Source: Ferruginibacter sp.
GTDB taxonomy: Bacteria; Bacteroidota; Bacteroidia; Chitinophagales; Chitinophagaceae
Assembly: GCA_030157685.1 (NCBI GenBank)
Contig: JAOAUI010000406.1
Location: forward strand, 1 to 39,659
Direction: 5' to 3'
DNA length: 39,659 nucleotides
Below, in pieces: positions 2,374 to 28,948 of this stretch. The position numbers were made by a program, and so were the translations under genes. The number at the start of each line of letters is the position of its first letter. The first letter of the stretch is position 1. A model generated the notes under the pieces. The model was given only the letters and a program-made list of their open reading frames with translations. It searched no databases and had not been told where the DNA came from.

Positions 2374-3096
2374 ATGTGGAGCATTTGTAAAAAAGAACTC
2401 AACCAGTTTTTCAGCAGCCTTACCGGCTACATTGCCATAATACTGTTTTTATTAATAAACGGGGTATTCCTGTTTGTTTTAAACGACAGCAGCATTTTTG
2501 AATTTGGTTATGCATCACTGGATAAATTTTTTGAACTGGCACCCTGGGTTTTAATGTTCCTCGTTCCCGCCATAACTATGCGCTCGCTTTCTGAAGAATT
2601 CAGAGCCGGTACATTTGAGATACTGAAAACAAAACCGCTTTCTTCCTGGCAGATCGTTTTGGGTAAATATTTTTCTATCCTAATCGTTTTGTTTCTGGCT
2701 CTTCTTCCTACAATAATCTATATCATTACCATAAAGGCTTTAAGTGCACAGGGCGGTATTGATGGTGGCGGAATACTGGGAAGTTATATCGGCCTGTTTT
2801 TCCTGGTGGCTGTGTTTGCAGCCATTGGCCTGTGTTGCAGCGGGTTTACCAGTAATGCTGTTGTAGCATTTTTGATAAGTGCTTTCAGCTGCCTCATTTT
2901 GTATTTTGGATTTAATGCATTGAGTAAGTTGCCTTTTTTTGAAAACGGTGCAGACTACTATATTGAAATGCTGGGGATTGATTTTCATTACCTCAGCATC
3001 AGCCGGGGTGTGCTCGATACCAGGGACCTGGTTTATTTTATCAGCATAATTTTTATTTTCTTATTAACCACGGTAAAAAATCTACATAAAAAATAA
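2374..3096 (+). CDS. gldF: Gliding motility-associated ABC transporter permease GldF
   Basis: ABC-2 permease beginning MWSICKKELNQFFSSLTGYIAIILFLLINGVFLFV, with SLSEEFRAGTFEILKTKPLSSWQIVLGKY; followed by gldG. Confidence 0.92.
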   Translation: MWSICKKELNQFFSSLTGYIAIILFLLINGVFLFVLNDSSIFEFGYASLDKFFELAPWVLMFLVPAITMRSLSEEFRAGTFEILKTKPLSSWQIVLGKYFSILIVLFLALLPTIIYIITIKALSAQGGIDGGGILGSYIGLFFLVAVFAAIGLCCSGFTSNAVVAFLISAFSCLILYFGFNALSKLPFFENGADYYIEMLGIDFHYLSISRGVLDTRDLVYFISIIFIFLLTTVKNLHKK

Positions 3097-3150
3097 GCTC
3101 ACCCCATCCCTCTCCAAAAAGGAGAGGGTGTTGCGAAGAATAAAGCGAAA

Positions 3151-4866
3151 ATGAACAAACTGTTTAATAAAATATGGAAAAGTAAAGGTTGGTTTCTAAT
3201 AACCATTGCTGCGTTGGCTGCTATCAACTGGCTGGCTTCCATGTATCATACCCGTATAGATTTTACCAATGAAAAAAGATTCACCCTTTCTGAACCCACA
3301 AAAAAAGTTTTGCAAAAACTGGATGATATGGTGCAGGTTGATGTTTTTTTAAAAGGCGATTTCCCCAGCGGGTTTAAAAAACTGGCGAACAGTACCACTG
3401 AGCTTTTACAGGAATTTAAAGAGGTTGCCGGTAAAAAACTGCAATACCGTTTTATTAGTCCCGATGAAAATGTAGAAGGCACAAATGTGCTGTGGGCAGA
3501 TACTTTAGGTGCTTTGGGATTTTATCCCATCAATCTTACATCGCAGATAAAAGAAGGGCAGCAGCAGCAAAATATTTACCCGGTTGCTTTTGTGCATTAC
3601 AAAGAAAGTATTTTACCGGTGATGATTTACCAGGGTAAAACAAAAGCAATCACCTATCCCGAGATAAACAGTGCGGAAGCCATGATGGAATTTAATTTCA
3701 TCAATGCAATTGATAAATTGTTGCAAAAAGAAAAACCGGTTGTGGGTTATACAGTTGGTAATGGTGAGCCAACGGGTTATTCTGTTGAAGACCTGGTTAA
3801 AAATACCTTGCAGCAGGAGTATAAGTTTTATACTATCAACCCCAATACACAACCTGCAATTCCAAAGGAATTTAATGTATTGTTTATTGTAAAACCAACG
3901 CAGCCATTTACAGATGAAGCAAAACTAAAGCTTGATCAGTATGTAATGAACGGCGGGAAGATCATTTTCTTTCTTGATAAATTAAATGCCGAACTGGACA
4001 GCCTGAAGGGTGAAAAAGGCGAAGTGGTTGCATACGACCGTGGATTGGAATTGAATGATCTGCTTTTTAAATACGGCGCAAGAATTAATCCCGACCTGGT
4101 GATGGACCTGCAATGCGATTTTCTGCCTTTTGATGTAAGTGGTAATGGCCAGTTTGAATTGTTGCCCTGGAATTATTTCCCGGTTTTTGAAACAAAAGCA
4201 AATCATATCATTAATAAAAACCTGGGTTTTGTAAGCGGCAGGTTTGTAAACTCAATAGATACGGTAGAAGCAGAGGGTATTAAAAAAACTATTTTATTAA
4301 GCTCGTCACCCAATTCCCGAACTATTGCCACGCCTGCATTGATAAGCGTTTTAGAAAATGTAAATGCACCTGAGAATGAGAAATTTAAAAAAACAAACAT
4401 CCCAACAGCAGTGTTGCTGGAGGGAAAATTCAAATCACTTTTTGCAAACCGTTTATCTGAGACAATGAATGACTCTTTGCAAAGTATTGGTGCCATTTTT
4501 ATGCCGCAATGCATGGCCGATAATAAAATGATTGTTGTTGCCGATGGTGATATTGTTTTAAACTCGGTAGTAAAAGGCAACCAGGCAATACCCATGGGTA
4601 TGAATCCTTTTACTTTTGGATCACAACGTGAATTTGCATTTGCCAATAAAGATTTTTTACAAAACTGCCTCGATTATCTCATCAACACTTCCAATCTTTC
4701 AGAAGCAAAAGCAAAAGATTATACAATGCGCCTGCTGGATAAGAAAAAAGTAGAAGCTGAAAAGAACTTTTGGAAACTGGTCAATATTCTGGTACCGGTG
4801 GCTGTAATAGTTTTATTTGCACTGCTCTATCAGTTTATAAGACGAAGAAAATATACCCTTACTTAA
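3151..4866 (+). CDS. gldG: Gliding motility-associated ABC transporter substrate-binding protein GldG
   Basis: N-terminal TM, RIDFTNEKRFTLSEPTKKVLQKLDDMVQVDVFLKGDFPSGFKKL, C-terminal TM; downstream of gldF. Confidence 0.92.
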   Translation: MNKLFNKIWKSKGWFLITIAALAAINWLASMYHTRIDFTNEKRFTLSEPTKKVLQKLDDMVQVDVFLKGDFPSGFKKLANSTTELLQEFKEVAGKKLQYRFISPDENVEGTNVLWADTLGALGFYPINLTSQIKEGQQQQNIYPVAFVHYKESILPVMIYQGKTKAITYPEINSAEAMMEFNFINAIDKLLQKEKPVVGYTVGNGEPTGYSVEDLVKNTLQQEYKFYTINPNTQPAIPKEFNVLFIVKPTQPFTDEAKLKLDQYVMNGGKIIFFLDKLNAELDSLKGEKGEVVAYDRGLELNDLLFKYGARINPDLVMDLQCDFLPFDVSGNGQFELLPWNYFPVFETKANHIINKNLGFVSGRFVNSIDTVEAEGIKKTILLSSSPNSRTIATPALISVLENVNAPENEKFKKTNIPTAVLLEGKFKSLFANRLSETMNDSLQSIGAIFMPQCMADNKMIVVADGDIVLNSVVKGNQAIPMGMNPFTFGSQREFAFANKDFLQNCLDYLINTSNLSEAKAKDYTMRLLDKKKVEAEKNFWKLVNILVPVAVIVLFALLYQFIRRRKYTLT

Positions 4867-4867
4867 C

Positions 4868-5869
4868 ATGAACAAAACACAATTGATATATCTGGTTTTC
4901 GGCGTAATAATTTTAATCTCACTTGTTGTGGATCTTGGCCTGATGAGTAAAAAAAACCAGAAGGTTTCTATAAAACAGGCTTTGTACCAAACCTTTTTTT
5001 GGGTAGGCCTTGCACTGGCATTTTGTATTTTTTTATGGATTGAACAAGGGCAAAAACCTGCACTGGAATACCTGAGTGCCTACCTGATGGAGTGGAGCCT
5101 GAGCATAGATAATATTTTTGTTTTCATACTTATTTTTGCAGCCTTTAGCGTAAAAGAAAAAAACTATGGCCGGGTATTATTGATAGGGATATTGATGGCC
5201 ATTGTGTTCAGGATTATATTTATTACAGTAGGTGTGGTACTGGTAGAAAAATTTCACTGGTTGTTGTATGTGTTTGGTGTCTTCCTGGTGTACACAGGCT
5301 ACAAAATGTTTATATCTGTTGAGGAGGATAAAGATTTTGATCCGCAGAAAAGTAAAGTTTATATTTTTTTAAAAAGATTTTTACCCCTTGCACCACATGA
5401 TGGTAATGGCAAGTTTGCAGTAATAGAAAATGGTAAAAAAAAGTACACCACTTTATTTGTAGTAGTGATTATGCTGGCAGCGATTGACTTGGTCTTTGCA
5501 TTAGATTCTATACCTGCTGTAATGGGCATTGTTGATACCAAGACGCATAGCTATCAGCCCACAGCAAGACTGGTAATTTACACGTCTAATATTTTTGCAG
5601 TGCTGGGCCTTCGTTCTTTATTCTTTCTGTTAAGGAACGCTGTAAATAAATTTGATTACCTGCCACAGGGTATTGCCATCGTATTAATATTTATAGGTGT
5701 AAAAATGCTGGGCGAGTACTGGATAAACCAATGGATAGATAAAACCATACAGGTATTTATTTCGCTGGCCTTTATATTGGTTTGCCTGGCAACATCTGTA
5801 GTGTATTCTATTTTTATTGACAGGGCAGCTGATAATGAGAAGCCGCTGGATGATGACCAGGCACATTAA
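4868..5869 (+). CDS. TerC/Alx family integral membrane protein
   Basis: Polytopic; AYLMEWSLSIDNIFVFILIF and AAIDLVFALDSIPAVMGI TerC motifs. Starts 1 nt after the gldG stop. Confidence 0.92.
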   Translation: MNKTQLIYLVFGVIILISLVVDLGLMSKKNQKVSIKQALYQTFFWVGLALAFCIFLWIEQGQKPALEYLSAYLMEWSLSIDNIFVFILIFAAFSVKEKNYGRVLLIGILMAIVFRIIFITVGVVLVEKFHWLLYVFGVFLVYTGYKMFISVEEDKDFDPQKSKVYIFLKRFLPLAPHDGNGKFAVIENGKKKYTTLFVVVIMLAAIDLVFALDSIPAVMGIVDTKTHSYQPTARLVIYTSNIFAVLGLRSLFFLLRNAVNKFDYLPQGIAIVLIFIGVKMLGEYWINQWIDKTIQVFISLAFILVCLATSVVYSIFIDRAADNEKPLDDDQAH

Positions 5870-5920
5870 CCGGCTCAAAAATGGCAACAGCAAATAAAAC
5901 TGTCGTCTGATAATTAATCA

Positions 5921-8425
5921 TTGATGTATACCATTGCAGACATAGAAAAAATAACTGGCGCTAAATTTTTATTAAGCAACAATCCTGCTGCTGTAATAGA
6001 ACACCTGCTTATTGACAGTCGAAAATTATTATTTCCTGCTTCCAGTTTGTTTTTTTCCTTGCCCGGCCCACGCAGGCAGGGTAGTACTTTTGTAAAAGAT
6101 TTGTATAATAAAGGTGTTCGCAATTTTATAGTAGATACTTCTTTCACCTTTTTACCGCAGGATTTTGAAGCAGCAAATATTATACAGGTAAAAAATGTAT
6201 TGCAGGCTTTGCAGGAGTTAACAGCAAAGCATCGCAGTCAATTTAATTTTCCGGTAATGGGTATAACCGGCAGCAATGGCAAAACCATTGTAAAAGAATG
6301 GCTTTACCAGTTGTTGCATCTCGATTTTAATATTGTGAGAAGCCCCAAAAGTTACAATTCGCAAATTGGAGTTCCCTTGAGTGTTTGGCAGATGAATGAA
6401 CAACATACACTCGGTATTTTTGAAGCAGGCATCTCTATGCCAGGCGAAATGGAAAGACTTGAAAAAGTTATTAAACCCGGCATTGGCATTTTTACCAATA
6501 TTGGCGAGGCACACAGCGAGGGATTTGAAAATATTGCCGGTAAAATAAATGAAAAAGTAAAACTCTTTGCAAACAGCGGTACAGTTATTTATTGTAAAGA
6601 TGAAGTGCTGGTTGATGATGCTTTGCGGTTGTTTCAGCAAAAAAACAATTCGCTTTTATTTACCTGGGGTTATCATAAAGATGCAACGCTTTGCATCAGC
6701 AGCATACAAATTCAGCCATTTAACACGGTTATAAAAGCGGTTTACAAAGAAAAAAAGATTAGCATCTCTATACCATTTACAAATGATGCTGCTGTAAAAA
6801 ATGCCATTACCTGTTGGTGTTTATTATTGCTTTTAAATACCTGCCTGCCGGCAGGCAGGTTGAATGATGAATTGATACAGGAACGTATGCTGCAGTTAAA
6901 ACCTGTGGAAATGAGGCTGGAACTAAAGCAGGGCATCAACAACTGCTCTGTAATTAATGACAGTTACAGTGCAGATATTACTTCTTTATCCATTGCACTT
7001 GATTTTTTGCAGCAGCAACAGCAGCATCCCAAACGCACTGTTATCATCAGCGATATTTTGCAAAGTGGTAAAACAAATAAAGAGTTGTACCAGCAAGTGG
7101 CAGACATTCTGCAACAAAAAAATATTAACCGCCTTATTGGTGTAGGAACAGAAATTGTAAAGTACAGCGATGCATTTACCGGAATACCGGAAACAGCATT
7201 TTTTAATTCAACTGCCGAATTTTTGCAGAAGTTTCCGGCCATGCATTTTTACAATGAAAGCATTTTATTAAAAGGTGCCAGGCTTTTTGAGTTTGAACAG
7301 ATCAGTCATTTGCTGGAAGAAAAAGTTCACCAGACCGTATTGGAAATAAACCTGAATGCCATTACCTATAATTTAAACACTTACCAGCAACTGCTGAACC
7401 CAGGTGTTAAATTAATGGCCATGGTAAAAGCTTTCAGCTATGGAAGCGGCGGTTTTGAAATTGCCAACCTGCTACAGTTTCACAAAGTAGATTACCTGGC
7501 TGTTGCCTATGCAGATGAGGGTGTTGAATTACGCAAAGCCGGTATTACATTGCCCATTATGGTGATGAATGCAGAGGAAGTTACTTACGATGTTTTGGTA
7601 CAGCATAACCTGGAGCCAGAGCTTTTTTCGTTTGGCATCTTATCTACTTTTGAAGATTATTTAATGCGCAACGGTATACAAAATTACCCGGTGCATATAA
7701 AACTGGATACCGGCATGCGCCGCCTTGGATTTGAACAAAAAGATATTGCTGAATTATGCAGCAGGTTACAATCAGGTTCGGTTTTTAAAATACAATCCGT
7801 TTTTTCTCACCTGGCTGCAAGCGATTCGGCTTTGCATGATGCCTTTACCAATGCGCAGGCAAAAGCATTTCTGGTAGGTTGTGAGCAGATTCAAAAAATT
7901 ACCGGATACACATTCATCAGGCATATTGCAAACACATCTGCCATTCACCGGCATAAAAATATGCAGTTTGATATGATACGGCTGGGAATTGGTTTGTATG
8001 GTGTTGATGCCGAACCCACCATTCAGCAACAATTAAAAAATGTAACCACTTTAAAAACCACCATCTCTCAAATAAAAAAAATAAAAGCCGGCGAAAGTAT
8101 TGGCTACAGCCGTAAAGGAGTGGCCGTCAAAGATTCGGTAATTGCCACTGTAAGGATTGGCTATGCCGATGGATACCCACGATTATTAAGTAATGGTGCT
8201 GGAACTATGTTTGTGAATGGTAGATTAGCACCTGTTATTGGAAATGTGTGCATGGATATGACCATGCTTGACATAACCGGTATTGATGCACAGGAAGGCG
8301 ATGAAGTGATAGTGTTTGGTGCAGCATTGCCGGTAAGCGAACTGGCAGCTTCAGCCCAAAGCATTCCTTACGAAATTTTGACCGGTATTTCTCAAAGGGT
8401 TAAGCGGGTATATTTTGAGGAATGA
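5921..8425 (+). CDS. Bifunctional MurF-like / alanine racemase fusion protein
   Basis: N-terminal Mur ligase half (MGITGSNGKTIVKEW) and C-terminal alanine racemase (LEINLNAITYNLNTYQQLLNPGVKLMAMVKAFSYGSG; GNVCMDMTMLDI). Confidence 0.93.
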   Translation: MMYTIADIEKITGAKFLLSNNPAAVIEHLLIDSRKLLFPASSLFFSLPGPRRQGSTFVKDLYNKGVRNFIVDTSFTFLPQDFEAANIIQVKNVLQALQELTAKHRSQFNFPVMGITGSNGKTIVKEWLYQLLHLDFNIVRSPKSYNSQIGVPLSVWQMNEQHTLGIFEAGISMPGEMERLEKVIKPGIGIFTNIGEAHSEGFENIAGKINEKVKLFANSGTVIYCKDEVLVDDALRLFQQKNNSLLFTWGYHKDATLCISSIQIQPFNTVIKAVYKEKKISISIPFTNDAAVKNAITCWCLLLLLNTCLPAGRLNDELIQERMLQLKPVEMRLELKQGINNCSVINDSYSADITSLSIALDFLQQQQQHPKRTVIISDILQSGKTNKELYQQVADILQQKNINRLIGVGTEIVKYSDAFTGIPETAFFNSTAEFLQKFPAMHFYNESILLKGARLFEFEQISHLLEEKVHQTVLEINLNAITYNLNTYQQLLNPGVKLMAMVKAFSYGSGGFEIANLLQFHKVDYLAVAYADEGVELRKAGITLPIMVMNAEEVTYDVLVQHNLEPELFSFGILSTFEDYLMRNGIQNYPVHIKLDTGMRRLGFEQKDIAELCSRLQSGSVFKIQSVFSHLAASDSALHDAFTNAQAKAFLVGCEQIQKITGYTFIRHIANTSAIHRHKNMQFDMIRLGIGLYGVDAEPTIQQQLKNVTTLKTTISQIKKIKAGESIGYSRKGVAVKDSVIATVRIGYADGYPRLLSNGAGTMFVNGRLAPVIGNVCMDMTMLDITGIDAQEGDEVIVFGAALPVSELAASAQSIPYEILTGISQRVKRVYFEE
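6839..6860. repeat. 22-bp perfect palindrome ACCTGCCTGCCGGCAGGCAGGT inside the murF/alr coding sequence
   Basis: Reads identically on both strands; in frame as ..NTCLPAGRLN.. Confidence 0.9.
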
Positions 8426-22324: not shown

Positions 22325-23287
22325 TTACTGCTGCTGTTGCTGCATTTCCAGGAAACGCTGGTATGAGTTATTGGTTACTGCAGGATTTTTAGAAGTATAA
22401 CTAAAGGTTGGCGCCGCATCACTTTCTTCCGGCGATTTTTGATTGCCATTGTTAATTACTACCGACACTTCTAATGTATGCTCCGATGAGCCTTTATATG
22501 TTCCTTTCACCGGTGTGCAATCAGAAAAATTTCTTCCAATGGCAAGACGTACGTGGCGATCGCTAACAATGCAATTGTTTGTGGGGTCAAGGCCAAGCCA
22601 GCCAAAAAATGGAATGTAAGCTTCCACCCATGCATGCGTTGCACCTTCGCCACGCATTTCCCGGTCTTTGGGGCATATATAGCCGCTTACATATCTTGCC
22701 GGAATACTGATCATGTGTAACATCACCAGCAGTACATGTGCAAAATCCTGGCAAACACCGGCCTTTAATTTCAATATCTCATCCACTTTGGTTTCAATAT
22801 TGGTAACTCCTTTCTTGTACTCAAAATTATTGTACACGTATTCCGATAAAATATTTGCATTTACCAGAGGAGATTTTGAAGTATCAACAATACCTGAAAG
22901 AAATTTTTGTATTTCTTCATCGGCAGCAAATTTTTCACGATACATAAAATCCATGTATGGAAAAATGCCGCACATTTTGCTTAGTTCTTCCCATTGCAGT
23001 GCGGGGGCAATGTCATCAATCGGAGTAATAACAGGTGTTGTACTTACAACTATATCCGATTGTATGGTTAATTCATTATGTGGTGCCACAACAGAAAAAA
23101 CGCCAATCTTATTTTCAAAGAAATCTGTAAATACTTCAATAGCAGGATCATTGGTTACTTTTAGCTCATGACTTTTTACTATTTGCAAACTGTCGTTGAT
23201 AGGATAGAGCATGATCTGGTTGCTGCAGTCAATAACTGTAGAAGTGTAGGTGTAACGGGTAATATGTTTAATGTGATAATCAGCCAT
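22325..23287 (-). CDS. Transglutaminase-like cysteine protease family protein (COG1305-type)
   Basis: KAGVCQDFAHVLLVMLHMISIPARYVSGYI ... THAWVEAYIPFFGWLGLDPTNN catalytic Cys/His/Asp blocks. Confidence 0.9.
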   Translation of the reverse strand: MADYHIKHITRYTYTSTVIDCSNQIMLYPINDSLQIVKSHELKVTNDPAIEVFTDFFENKIGVFSVVAPHNELTIQSDIVVSTTPVITPIDDIAPALQWEELSKMCGIFPYMDFMYREKFAADEEIQKFLSGIVDTSKSPLVNANILSEYVYNNFEYKKGVTNIETKVDEILKLKAGVCQDFAHVLLVMLHMISIPARYVSGYICPKDREMRGEGATHAWVEAYIPFFGWLGLDPTNNCIVSDRHVRLAIGRNFSDCTPVKGTYKGSSEHTLEVSVVINNGNQKSPEESDAAPTFSYTSKNPAVTNNSYQRFLEMQQQQQ

Positions 23288-23293
23288 AATTTT

Positions 23294-24226
23294 TTATGTA
23301 TTTCCGAAATATGATTTGTTGAATGTTGAAGCAATTTCTAAAAGCTCATTTCTGGTTTGGGGTAAAAATTCTTTAAGCAGTTTACTGTTGTTTGTAAGAT
23401 TACTATATTTAATATTGTTACTGCACCGCCCAATTAAAAATTCAAGTTGTGCAAAATTTTCCGGCTTGCTTTCTGTTTTTAATCTTTCAAAATAGCGTGA
23501 TAACCTGTTTAGAGAATATAATAAGGAATGTGGAAAATCTGTATTGTACAAAACGTGTTGTATCACCAGGCCTGCATCCAGCGTGCCCCTGTTTCTTTTA
23601 TTGTATAATTCGTAGCCGGATAAAGAATATAATAAAAAACGCCAGCTTGGATCATCAGCATATTTCTCCAGGTCGTAATCGTATTCTTTTAGTTTGATGG
23701 TGAGCAGGTCGATGGTGATGATTGCTCTTGAAAGAAAGCGCCCGATATTTAAGAAATTAAAACTCTGTTCACGGGCCATGGTAATGTCAACTGTACCATT
23801 GTATAACATGCCATGTCGTATCAGCAGATCCAGCGATGTAATGGGATCGCCGCTGCGGATATTTTTTTCAATATCGGCTTCCCGTATCAGGTGATAATAT
23901 TCATTCAGGCAAAGCCAAACTTCTTTGGTAATATGGTCCTGAACCGATCTTGCGTTTTCTCTTGCACGGGTAATATTATTGATGATGGAAGCATTGTTAT
24001 CTCTGTCAATAATTAAATGTTCCAGCACTTTGGGCGAATCTCTTTCAATAAGTTTGTATTCTGCTTCGGGTTTATCGCTGTAAATCTGTAAAACAGAATT
24101 CCAGCTAAAATCATTTATCTCATCCTGCGAAGAAACGTACTTGGTATGCAACATGCGTAACATGCGGTTGGTGCGTTCCATATATCTTGCCATCCAGAAA
24201 ATTGATTCGGCTACTCTACTCAGCAT
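23294..24226 (-). CDS. Alpha-E domain protein (COG2307/DUF403-type)
   Basis: MLSRVAESIFWMARYMERTNRMLRMLHTKY start; placed between ATP-grasp and transglutaminase genes. Confidence 0.88.
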   Translation of the reverse strand: MLSRVAESIFWMARYMERTNRMLRMLHTKYVSSQDEINDFSWNSVLQIYSDKPEAEYKLIERDSPKVLEHLIIDRDNNASIINNITRARENARSVQDHITKEVWLCLNEYYHLIREADIEKNIRSGDPITSLDLLIRHGMLYNGTVDITMAREQSFNFLNIGRFLSRAIITIDLLTIKLKEYDYDLEKYADDPSWRFLLYSLSGYELYNKRNRGTLDAGLVIQHVLYNTDFPHSLLYSLNRLSRYFERLKTESKPENFAQLEFLIGRCSNNIKYSNLTNNSKLLKEFLPQTRNELLEIASTFNKSYFGNT

Positions 24227-24256
24227 TTTTATTCAGTTAGTTTTGTATTTCTAAAT

Positions 24257-25705
24257 TTAACTTCCCAATACCCATGTATCTTTACTTCCTCCACCTTGTG
24301 ATGAATTAACCACAAGAGAGCCTTCTCTTAACGCAACTCTTGTCAATCCTCCGGGAACGATATCAACTCCATCGGGTCCATACAAAGCATAGGGCCTTAA
24401 GTCAACTCTTCTTGGTTGTAATTCTCCATCAATGTAACATGGAGACGATGATAAGTTGATAATTGGCTGTGCAATAAAACTTCTTGGATCGGCCTCAATG
24501 GCAATTTTAAAATTATCCATTTCTTTTTTTGTTGCAGCGCTGCCGATCAACATGCCATATCCACCCGATTCATTTGTTTTTTTAATTACCATCTTGCTCA
24601 TGTTGGCAAAAACCATTTTGCGGTTATCGGCATCTGCCAATTGGTAAGTAGGTACATTTTTAAGAATGGGTTCTTCGTTTAAATAATAACGAATCATATC
24701 CGGCACATAAGCATACACGGCTTTATCATCTGCCACGCCATTGCCCATGGCATTTACGATTGATACATTGCCTTTGCGATAGGCCCAATAAATGCCCGGC
24801 ACGCCCAACATACTGTCTGGCCTGAAAACAAGCGGGTCAATAAATTCATCATCCACACGTCGGTAAATCACATCCACTTTTTCCAGCCCTTTGGTTGTTT
24901 TCATATACACATGATGATTCTCTACAACAAGGTCACGGCCTTCAACCAATTCAATACCCATCAGCCTTGCAAGGGTTGTATGTTCAAAATAGGCAGAGTT
25001 AAACATGCCCGGTGTAAGCAATACAACCGTTGGGTTACTTTTTTGAGTATTTGATAAAGACAGGAGGTTTTTTAATAGGCGATCTGGATAATCTTTTACC
25101 GGAAGAACATTATTCTTAGGTATCAGATCAGGAAAAATTCTGTAGGTAATGCTTCTGTTCTCCAGCATATAAGAAACACCGGAAGGTGTACGCAGGTTAT
25201 CTTCCAGCACATAAAACTGTCCGTCGTAATCACGTATCAGGTCTACACCGGATATATGTGTGTAAATGTCAAAGGGCACATCCACATGCATCATCTCTCT
25301 TAAAAAATTAGGGCATGAGTAAATGAGTTTTGCAGGAATAATACCATCTTTAATAATGAATTGCTGATGATAAATATCTTTCAGGAAAATGTTTAAGGCT
25401 TTGAGGCGTTGTTTGATACCATTCTCAATATGTATCCATTCAGGTGCTGTAATGATACGGGGCACTACATCAAATGGAAATATTTTTTCAATGCCTTCGC
25501 CACTGTTGTAAACGGTAAATGTAACGCCCTGGCTCATGAACAGTTTTTTAGCCTGCTCATCTTTACGGGTAATTTCTTCGGAGGAGAGATTTTCTATGGC
25601 AGAAACAAAATTTTTGTAGTGAGGCCTGATGTCGCCATTGCCAAACATTTCATCCCAAATTTCAGGATGCTCAAAATATTTTCCCAATAATGGATGTCCT
25701 TCCAT
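24257..25705 (-). CDS. Circularly permuted ATP-grasp type 2 protein (COG2308-type)
   Basis: MEGHPLLGKYFEHPEIWDEMF, DLIRDYDGQFYVLEDNLRTPSGVSYMLENR, YRRVDDEFIDPLVFRPDSMLGVPG, VVNSSQGGGSKDTWVL. Confidence 0.9.
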   Translation of the reverse strand: MEGHPLLGKYFEHPEIWDEMFGNGDIRPHYKNFVSAIENLSSEEITRKDEQAKKLFMSQGVTFTVYNSGEGIEKIFPFDVVPRIITAPEWIHIENGIKQRLKALNIFLKDIYHQQFIIKDGIIPAKLIYSCPNFLREMMHVDVPFDIYTHISGVDLIRDYDGQFYVLEDNLRTPSGVSYMLENRSITYRIFPDLIPKNNVLPVKDYPDRLLKNLLSLSNTQKSNPTVVLLTPGMFNSAYFEHTTLARLMGIELVEGRDLVVENHHVYMKTTKGLEKVDVIYRRVDDEFIDPLVFRPDSMLGVPGIYWAYRKGNVSIVNAMGNGVADDKAVYAYVPDMIRYYLNEEPILKNVPTYQLADADNRKMVFANMSKMVIKKTNESGGYGMLIGSAATKKEMDNFKIAIEADPRSFIAQPIINLSSSPCYIDGELQPRRVDLRPYALYGPDGVDIVPGGLTRVALREGSLVVNSSQGGGSKDTWVLGS

Positions 25706-26184: not shown

Positions 26185-26280
26185 AATGAATTGTATAAAA
26201 CTTTTGTAAAAGTAACTCTATTCAATAAATATCACTAATAGTTCGCTATTTTGTGTTATACATGCTCAATCAATAATTGT

Positions 26281-27426
26281 ATGAATAATTCTGCTGCCGA
26301 AATTTCATCTTACTTAAAACACGGCGACTACTCAGTTGCTGTAAGAAGAACCCTTGACCTTTGCCTGGATTCGGGCAATGATGCATTGATTGAAAAAGCC
26401 ATTGGCTGGAGCCGGCAATATCATGCAATTGAAAACGGAGAAGCCGGAAAAACATTGCCTTCGGACTTTAGTGAAGAAGCCGAAAGCATTTTGCAGGAAG
26501 CATCAGCAACAGGTGCTGGAAGCACTGAGCAACATAAGCATCTTATCAGTGCTGAAAATATTTCGAAAAAATACAACAACGGAAGCTTTAGCCTGAAGCC
26601 TATCAACCTTTCTGTTAACACTGGCGATGTGTTGGGTGTTGTTGGCGAAAATGGAAATGGAAAAACAACTTTACTGCGTTGCCTGGCCGGTCAGCTGGGT
26701 TTAAACAACGGGGTTATCAGATATCATTTGTTGGAGAACCCGGATGCATATGCCATCAAAAATCATATTGCTTTTATTCCGCAGCGCATTCCCAAATGGT
26801 ATGGTATGCTTAAGGATAATCTGCATTTTAGCGCTGCCATTGCAGGTATTAATGGCGATAAAAATAATTTGATGGTAAACTTTATGCTGGAGCGGCTAAG
26901 CCTCAGCAGCTATGCTCATCTAACCTGGGACCAGATAAGCAGCGGCTACCGCACCCGGTTTGAAATTGCCCGGATACTTTTACAAAAACCACGCTTATTA
27001 ATTTTAGATGAACCATTGGCTAACCTGGATATTAATGCACAGCAAACCATTTTAACCGATCTGATCTTTATGGCCAAGGGTGCCCACAATCCAATGGGCA
27101 TTATTTTAAGCTCCCAGCAATTGCATGAAGTGGAGAAAGTTGCCGACTCAGTAATTTTCATTAAGCAGGGAAATTGCATTTACAAAAGCAGTGACGATGA
27201 AGGAAAAATTACAAGCAATGCGGTTGAGTTTGAAACCAAAGCCGGCAGAGAAAGTATTATCAGTTTATTTGGAGAAGGAAATATTGAACTGCAGTTTAAT
27301 GGTGGTTTTTATACCATTATTTCTGCTTCATTATCATCGCAGGAAATTATAGGTAAGATGATTGATGCAAAAATTCCGATAACCTATTTCAGGGATATTA
27401 CTTACAGCACCAAACGATTTTTTTAA
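26281..27426 (+). CDS. ABC transporter ATP-binding protein with helical N-terminal extension
   Basis: Walker A GENGNGKTT, Walker B RLLILDEPLANLD, non-canonical signature ISSGYRTRF; ~85-aa N-terminal extension. Start set at ATG 26281. Confidence 0.85.
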   Translation: MNNSAAEISSYLKHGDYSVAVRRTLDLCLDSGNDALIEKAIGWSRQYHAIENGEAGKTLPSDFSEEAESILQEASATGAGSTEQHKHLISAENISKKYNNGSFSLKPINLSVNTGDVLGVVGENGNGKTTLLRCLAGQLGLNNGVIRYHLLENPDAYAIKNHIAFIPQRIPKWYGMLKDNLHFSAAIAGINGDKNNLMVNFMLERLSLSSYAHLTWDQISSGYRTRFEIARILLQKPRLLILDEPLANLDINAQQTILTDLIFMAKGAHNPMGIILSSQQLHEVEKVADSVIFIKQGNCIYKSSDDEGKITSNAVEFETKAGRESIISLFGEGNIELQFNGGFYTIISASLSSQEIIGKMIDAKIPITYFRDITYSTKRFF

Positions 27427-27445
27427 ACACTGCAATATTTTATAA

Positions 27446-28948
27446 ATGAGTAAAAGGCCATTAGTTCCGTCGTTTTTACAAAAGATTGATGATAAGCTGC
27501 TACGCAACAAGCCCGGTGCCTGGGCCAGCAGGGCGCACCTGGTTCTTTATTTTGCCGCCGCATTTGCATTGCTGCTGTTTGTTTTTTGCTATGCTGCTTT
27601 TTTTGATGCAAAACAATACAGCAATATTGGAAGCTGGAATGTATTTACAGGGCTGATAGCTTTTGTAGGCTTTGTTTTCTGGCTCATTTATTTGCTGCGC
27701 TTTAATGTTTTTAAGCGTTATGGTAACTGGTCGGCCATGGATGGCTTGCGGGACTTTGCTTTATATTTTATAAGCATTGGTGCCATGGTAGCTGTTTGTT
27801 TTATACCATCGGCAGTTGAAACCATGCGGGCCAACCAGCAATTTGGTAACGAAGAAATTGTAAAAGACATCAATGAGCTAAATATAAATGCCTGCAGGCT
27901 GGAGTATAAAATACTGCCGTTGGAGTGGAGAGCCGATACTACCAGAATTGTTAACAATAAATATGTACCGGCCCCCGGTGATGAAGTAGTCTCTGACACT
28001 GCAACTGTTGTTACACCAATAAAAGTTGCGCCTGAAACAATAAGCTATGCCACTGTTATAGACACTTCGGAACTTAGAAGTAAGTTAGCATCTGCCGATA
28101 GTCTTTTAAAAATCAATGATTCGCTCTACGTATTTTATGAATGCCCTAATTACCGGTTTGTAAGTTCTTACAGTGCTGATGATTATTCGGCAGTAAAAAT
28201 GTTTAGCTCTGCAGATATTTATAACAACACGATTAAAAATTTTAAAAAACCCGACCGGACTGCTTTAATGAAGCGTATGCTTGAATTACAAACCAAATAC
28301 GCAGCAAATAGCCCATATTATTATGGTGAGTATAACACTATTGATGAAAATGATAATTATGAAACCCGGATCAATAAAACATATGACCTAACCAGAATTG
28401 GGAATGGCATTGATAATGCTGTTAGGAAAAAGCAGGCCTGGATAACAGCCTGGCCCATCTACCTGCGGGTATTTTACTATATAGCATTGCTGCTTACCAT
28501 GTTGGTATTTATTTTCAGGCACAGCACAGTAAAAACATTTTTCTTATCGGTTTTGGCTGCTGTGTTATTAGCCATTCTTACAGGTTTACTGATGGTTGTT
28601 AGCCATGGAGATGAAGTAACTGCACTTTCTTTTATGATCGTTTATTATGTTGTATTTGCTATACTGGGCTTATCAATTTTTAAAACTGATATACGGAAAG
28701 CGATACAGGGGATTGGTTTAAACCTGTTTTTATTTTCCACTCCTTTTGTACCCTTAATATTTGTAGCGCTTAACGAGGCAAGGAAGTATAACTTTTACCC
28801 GGATAAAGTTTACGAGGAAAGAGACCCGGCACAAACGGCATATTATTTTTTAATAGCTGAAATTGTGGGCTCCGTTATCCTGGTTATCTTAATACAACCT
28901 TTATTTAAAAAATTATACCGCAAATGGTATTCGGCTCCGGAGGAGTAA
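27446..28948 (+). CDS. Polytopic membrane protein, likely partner of the upstream ABC ATPase
   Basis: About 3 N-terminal and 4-5 C-terminal hydrophobic segments flanking a ~215-aa hydrophilic region; 19-nt gap from the ABC gene. Confidence 0.75.
   Translation: MSKRPLVPSFLQKIDDKLLRNKPGAWASRAHLVLYFAAAFALLLFVFCYAAFFDAKQYSNIGSWNVFTGLIAFVGFVFWLIYLLRFNVFKRYGNWSAMDGLRDFALYFISIGAMVAVCFIPSAVETMRANQQFGNEEIVKDINELNINACRLEYKILPLEWRADTTRIVNNKYVPAPGDEVVSDTATVVTPIKVAPETISYATVIDTSELRSKLASADSLLKINDSLYVFYECPNYRFVSSYSADDYSAVKMFSSADIYNNTIKNFKKPDRTALMKRMLELQTKYAANSPYYYGEYNTIDENDNYETRINKTYDLTRIGNGIDNAVRKKQAWITAWPIYLRVFYYIALLLTMLVFIFRHSTVKTFFLSVLAAVLLAILTGLLMVVSHGDEVTALSFMIVYYVVFAILGLSIFKTDIRKAIQGIGLNLFLFSTPFVPLIFVALNEARKYNFYPDKVYEERDPAQTAYYFLIAEIVGSVILVILIQPLFKKLYRKWYSAPEE

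Follow-up and report, generated by a model that had tools for sequence, protein, structure and literature searches.

A conserved ATPase and membrane protein pair of Bacteroidota as a candidate envelope ABC system with a glutamine at the switch position

Two adjacent genes on a 39,659-nucleotide stretch of DNA from Ferruginibacter sp., referred to here as the window, encode an ABC system, recognizable as such by its ATPase, that constitutes a distinct and unstudied branch of ABC machines in some Bacteroidota. We consider the branch distinct because its ATPase is missing the switch histidine and carries an extra N-terminal domain resembling a bacterial protein-docking module. The explanation we favor, with our confidence about evenly divided for and against it, is that of a dedicated, ATP-driven, two-subunit Bacteroidota ABC machine with a periplasmic working domain that performs envelope work; its role may lie in mechanotransmission or in export. 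A search of the openly accessible literature returned no paper on the pair.

The ATPase gene (26281..27426, plus strand; 381 aa) begins with the ATG at 26281, a start shared by its orthologues, and the list of open reading frames extends the same frame to a TTG at 26251. The gene for the membrane partner (27446..28948, plus strand; 500 aa) encodes eight predicted transmembrane (TM) helices, as judged from hydropathy of the protein and of an alignment, and follows after a gap of 19 nt (27427–27445), the spacing reported in the preliminary description. Because the protein sequences of both frames are conserved in many species, we take them to be genes and not chance open reading frames. The next gene downstream of the partner is unrelated and convergent.

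Linkage of the two genes was examined in loci with sufficiently long flanks, which amounted to 28 rows, three of them being second entries for a genome already included. In every one of the 25 distinct loci with a readable ATPase, the window not counted, the ATPase lies directly upstream of the partner on the same strand, at gaps of −83 to +30 nt with one exception of 138 nt (L004 = L010). The genome represented by these two entries has an intact ATPase and a partner disrupted close to its start by a frameshift and a stop. Gene order is kept in Chitinophagales and in another family of the class (f25), members of which also carry the partner. When profiles were run against 60 relatives, six had both ATPase and partner and none had the partner alone, so that the co-occurrence in other genomes on which the preliminary description had staked its reading was borne out. 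A seventh relative (G012) encodes a more divergent ATPase with the partner next door, and the profile of the ATPase N-terminal domain found these same six genomes plus G012. Overall, the partner profile matched at least 6 of the 60 relatives and at least 15 of 299 genomes across the order. The count for the relatives leaves out a match in G041 (E 4e-4), which adjoins ATP-synthase-like genes and was taken as chance. Pairwise distances between family members are correlated for the NBD and the partner (Mantel r = 0.95) and for the N-terminal domain and the partner (r = 0.90), values to which shared descent alone contributes. Inheritance is patchy, reaching about 10% of genus relatives. Within the genus, the pair is mostly found at one fixed place beside gltX, and repeated loss from that site would therefore explain the patchiness better than mobility.

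The ATPase matched PF00005 with 84.5 bits against a cut-off of 25. Aligned motifs place Walker A (GENGNGKTT; aa 122–130, 26644..26670, plus strand), the Q-loop, an S-x-G signature, the D-loop and Walker B with its catalytic glutamate (LLILDEP; aa 239–245, 26995..27015, plus strand) in the protein, in agreement with an initial reading of both Walker motifs as intact, and the Walker B glutamate is invariant across the family. The same reading had treated the signature ISSGYRTRF (aa 219–227, 26935..26961, plus strand) as aberrant, and here it has to be corrected: the S-x-G core is kept, and GldA-type ATPases read LSKGYKQR (in the same genome) or LSKGYRQR (in relatives), which makes this an ordinary S-x-G-Y variant. 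Distant members of the family have LSGGY or LSGGF. The nearest NCBIfam classes were DrrA (110.7 bits) and GldA (105.4 bits), both far below the family cut-offs (402.6 bits for the GldA equivalog TIGR03522), and scores against FtsE and LptB models were lower than that against DrrA. In an AF2 model, some confidence was reached only in the N-terminal bundle and in a portion of the C-terminal region, and its Foldseek matches identified it only as an ABC ATPase. With DrrA, GldA and NosF, the ABC-A/DRA-type ATPases of ABC-2 exporters, the protein shares its NBD class, a C-terminal extension after the NBD and a gene position upstream of the membrane subunit, and with GldA in particular the S-x-G-Y signature. 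It differs from them in its N-terminal helical domain, in the residue at the switch position and in scoring far below cut-offs. The best scores, against DrrA and GldA, together with matches to ABCA-type PDB chains, bring in the main rival to an envelope machine. Since such ATPases normally pair with ABC-2 permeases, the system could be a conventional exporter of a lipid, peptide or small molecule, in which the partner is a very diverged ABC-2-type permease and its periplasmic part a substrate-handling insert.

The real oddity of the ATPase, which the first reading missed, is the replacement of the switch histidine by glutamine. Gln279 (27115..27117, plus strand; LSSQQLHEVE) occupies the H-loop position, the sole ATP-site motif that is not kept. 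Glutamine is present there in 26 of 26 family ATPases (25 of 25 distinct sequences and G012), whereas an alignment of ABC-2-linked ATPases from related genomes gave histidine in 15 of 15; by eye, the 21 readable ABC domains of the window's own genome comprise 19 with histidine, one with asparagine and one, the family ATPase, with glutamine. A CcmA-like ABC ATPase of that genome (L148, G000:C359:20428-20847) has asparagine at the switch position (VSSNVKEE), and since histidine is thus typical and not universal, membership of the family in the PF00005 superfamily stands.

Published substitutions at this position point in two directions. In HlyB, loss of the switch histidine abolishes hydrolysis, the His-to-Ala mutant retaining <0.1% of activity (PMC6222333), which leaves room for a weak or non-hydrolysing ATPase. 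According to a review, MRP1 mutants with Gln or Asn as the catalytic switch residue retain wild-type-like transport (PMC7756269), so glutamine can work at the switch. If the first precedent applied, the protein would bind ATP, hardly hydrolyse it, and gate the partner, which would serve as a channel or in signalling. The presence of glutamine in all members is consistent with such a non-transporting ATP sensor, but the invariant Walker B glutamate, which sets the family apart from most degenerate sites, and the tolerance of His-to-Gln in MRP1 argue against it, and we judge it improbable. A working ATPase in which glutamine takes the role of histidine seems likelier, because the Walker B glutamate is kept.

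The partner consists of three TM helices, a hydrophilic segment of ~217 aa and five further TM helices, close to the ~3 helices, ~215-aa segment and 4–5 helices of the preliminary description. Hydropathy profiles computed for the protein and for a 23-row alignment place the helices at residues ~33–50, 68–82 and 106–120, and then at ~340–357, 364–386, 396–408, 426–438 and 470–484. The hydrophilic segment between TM3 and TM4 (aa 122–338, 27809..28459, plus strand) is a predicted periplasmic domain, and basic loops fall mostly on the predicted cytoplasmic side. Among the latter is the conserved TM2–TM3 loop (LLRFNVFKRYG; aa 83–93, 27692..27724, plus strand), which contains the most constant stretch of the protein, LLRFNVFKR, nearly invariant in our alignment A1; an xRxNxFK pattern is kept in most of the distant members. 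A coupling helix would be expected at this loop, and we treat it as a candidate for that function. An AF2 model of the partner, built with 5 sequences, had a pLDDT of 46 and gave meaningless Foldseek matches.

Comparison of the partner with Pfam, NCBIfam and PDB sequences gave no match. Across 26 partner members, Pfam yielded no widely common match and none to ABC-2 families (PF12698 and relatives), and a PDB profile search with the 26 partners returned chance matches only. The FtsX/MacB-type family (PF02687) was not among the Pfam matches listed for the 26 members, and LptF/LptG (PF03739) gave neither a Pfam match in them nor a profile match. Matches of Acyl_transf_3 and 7TMR-DISM to single members were below cut-off and not widely common, and we attribute them to TM composition. 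In hhalign comparisons the partner gave E 0.016–0.7 against ABC2_membrane_3 and GldF-type sets, and E 0.007–0.7 over short stretches against ABC2_membrane_3, GldF-type and LptF/G profiles, whereas ABC2_membrane_3 and GldF-type profiles, as a positive control, found each other at E 1e-10. The comparison profiles were built from relatives and form a small panel, so the partner may still have a very remote ABC-2 origin. The suggestion that the partner does not read as a standard ABC-2 permease therefore holds up in the search for a known ABC-2 family, and it bears directly on the conventional exporter introduced above. Partner termini and a TM2–TM3 loop that are predicted to be cytoplasmic, like those of ABC-2, agree with that explanation, but eight TM helices in place of six, an insert positioned after TM3 and the profile results all count against it, and we consider it unlikely. 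Unlike the membrane subunits of DrrA, GldA and NosF systems, the partner is not ABC-2 by profile, and it is best read, from its sequence, as a new membrane-subunit family.

Systems with an ATPase and a membrane subunit bearing a large periplasmic domain, as here, include the mechanotransmission ABC systems MacB, FtsEX, LolCDE and BceAB, as well as LptB2FG, and in LptF/G the periplasmic domain also lies between TM3 and TM4. The partner differs from FtsX and LptF_LptG systems in having neither Pfam family among its listed matches and in its eight TM helices. Relatives of the partner exist in a family of ~390-aa proteins that keep TM1–3, the periplasmic region and one C-terminal TM helix (hhalign E 3e-11 to the partner). 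No ABC gene was found in the flanks of these standalone proteins (L072 982–2148, L073 1024–2190, L074 811–2013 and L077 3–548). Since a relative exists that has no ATPase gene, the periplasmic part may act without the pump, and this leads us to lean, short of proof, toward mechanical or signalling work by that part.

For an envelope machine, these features suggest the following sequence of events. Two ATPases and two membrane subunits would assemble into a 2:2 complex, in which ATP closes the ATPase dimer. The resulting movement could pass via the TM2–TM3 loop (LRFNVFKR), given the predicted in/out topology and the putative coupling role of this loop, into the partner bundle and the periplasmic domain. 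The latter, between TM3 and TM4, would then carry out the envelope work, either as mechanotransmission or by lifting a substrate out. Hydrolysis would depend on the Walker B glutamate, with Gln279 standing in for the switch histidine, and the N-terminal helical domain, either a derivative or a relative of an EAD11 adaptor, may act as a regulatory or docking module.

The N-terminal extension (aa 1–86, 26281..26538, plus strand), put at a helical ~85 aa before, comprises 86 residues with four helices predicted by AF2 (5–13, 17–30, 34–51 and 63–76; pLDDT ~66–87). The extension of one distant orthologue (L025) is Pfam EAD11 (PF19964; 43.9 bits, cut-off 26, E 2.3e-11), and that of another (L023) gave a weaker match (21.3 bits, cut-off 26); the window protein had no match to EAD11 at E up to 1. 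In profile-profile comparisons, EAD11 matched three distant ATPases jointly at E 1.5e-13, the window group matched the three distant EAD11-type ATPases at E 6.7e-6, and the window group matched EAD11 directly at E 1.1e-4 (prob 57), with only ~43 columns aligned. In controls, the best of 100 column shuffles gave 4e-3 and 5.7e-3 (the latter for the window group against EAD11) and reversed profiles gave 0.1–0.2. When the EAD11 HMM was searched against 1,363 ORFs and reversed versions of them, the window-type L017 scored E 0.0045 and the best reversed decoy 0.064. The first helices of EAD11 align with the extension, and distant orthologues carry a full EAD11, whereas the domain in the window scores under the Pfam threshold and its later helices have diverged. 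On these profile comparisons we think a common origin of the first helices of the extension and EAD11 probable. A second match of the N-terminal profile, to an 835-aa helicase-like protein in G002 (E 3e-4), was treated as chance.

EADs are described as adaptors of conflict systems, with homotypic docking predicted (PMC7159879, PMC8195603), and the main texts of the two papers that define them nowhere use the word ABC. The pair could conceivably be a conflict or defence device: an effector or sensor bearing an EAD would dock onto the EAD-like domain, and the target of the partner would be the membrane of its own cell. EAD11 in L025, and more weakly in L023, fits with this, as does the distant genome G036, in which a TIR ORF is followed by an EAD11 fragment in another frame (L167 2073–2811) ~0.65 kb from the pair (3462–6204). 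The change of frame may be a frameshift or an assembly error, and this single case is suggestive only. Against a conflict device, the window genome holds no EAD11 match, no second carrier of the N-terminal domain and no effector with a further copy of this EAD, and so offers no candidate docking partner, although at 77% completeness of the assembly these absences are not final. PADLOC yielded generic ATPase matches only, and the usual location of the pair in the genus, fixed beside gltX, is not that of mobile islands. Taken together, we find this the least credible of the explanations weighed here, and highly improbable. Because the features tested for were lacking in the window, we do not file the pair under ABC-2, LptFG, MacB/FtsX or EAD conflict systems. 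Elsewhere in the order, families f13 and f19 (L035–L064) are rich in proteins that join EAD11 to TIR, caspase-like, trypsin-like or NACHT-like regions, with up to 11 EAD11 matches per genome.

A bolder version of the envelope machine would make the pair a separate ABC class, with an unrelated 8-TM fold, a periplasmic working domain, a Gln-switch ATPase, a Death-like, EAD11-derived adaptor for steering and a tie to the EAD signalling network; this combination we regard as decidedly doubtful. If our reading is true, the pair would add a new membrane-subunit family to the ABC superfamily, its uniformly glutamine-bearing switch would offer a natural and direct way to probe what the switch histidine does in catalysis, and its N-terminal domain would link ABC machines to EAD adaptor domains for the first time. 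Deletion or co-expression should be easy, since the pair is compact and linked.

Other genes of the window include a GldF-type permease (240 aa, partial PF12698 match) followed by a GldG-like ORF at 2374–3999, which are ABC genes of the gliding-motility type. Adjoining the pair is a three-gene cluster on the minus strand (22325–25705), whose products we take to be transglutaminase-like, alpha-E-like and circularly permuted ATP-grasp-like proteins, and a similar pair, presumably ATP-grasp-like and alpha-E-like, occurs at L164 3507–5500.
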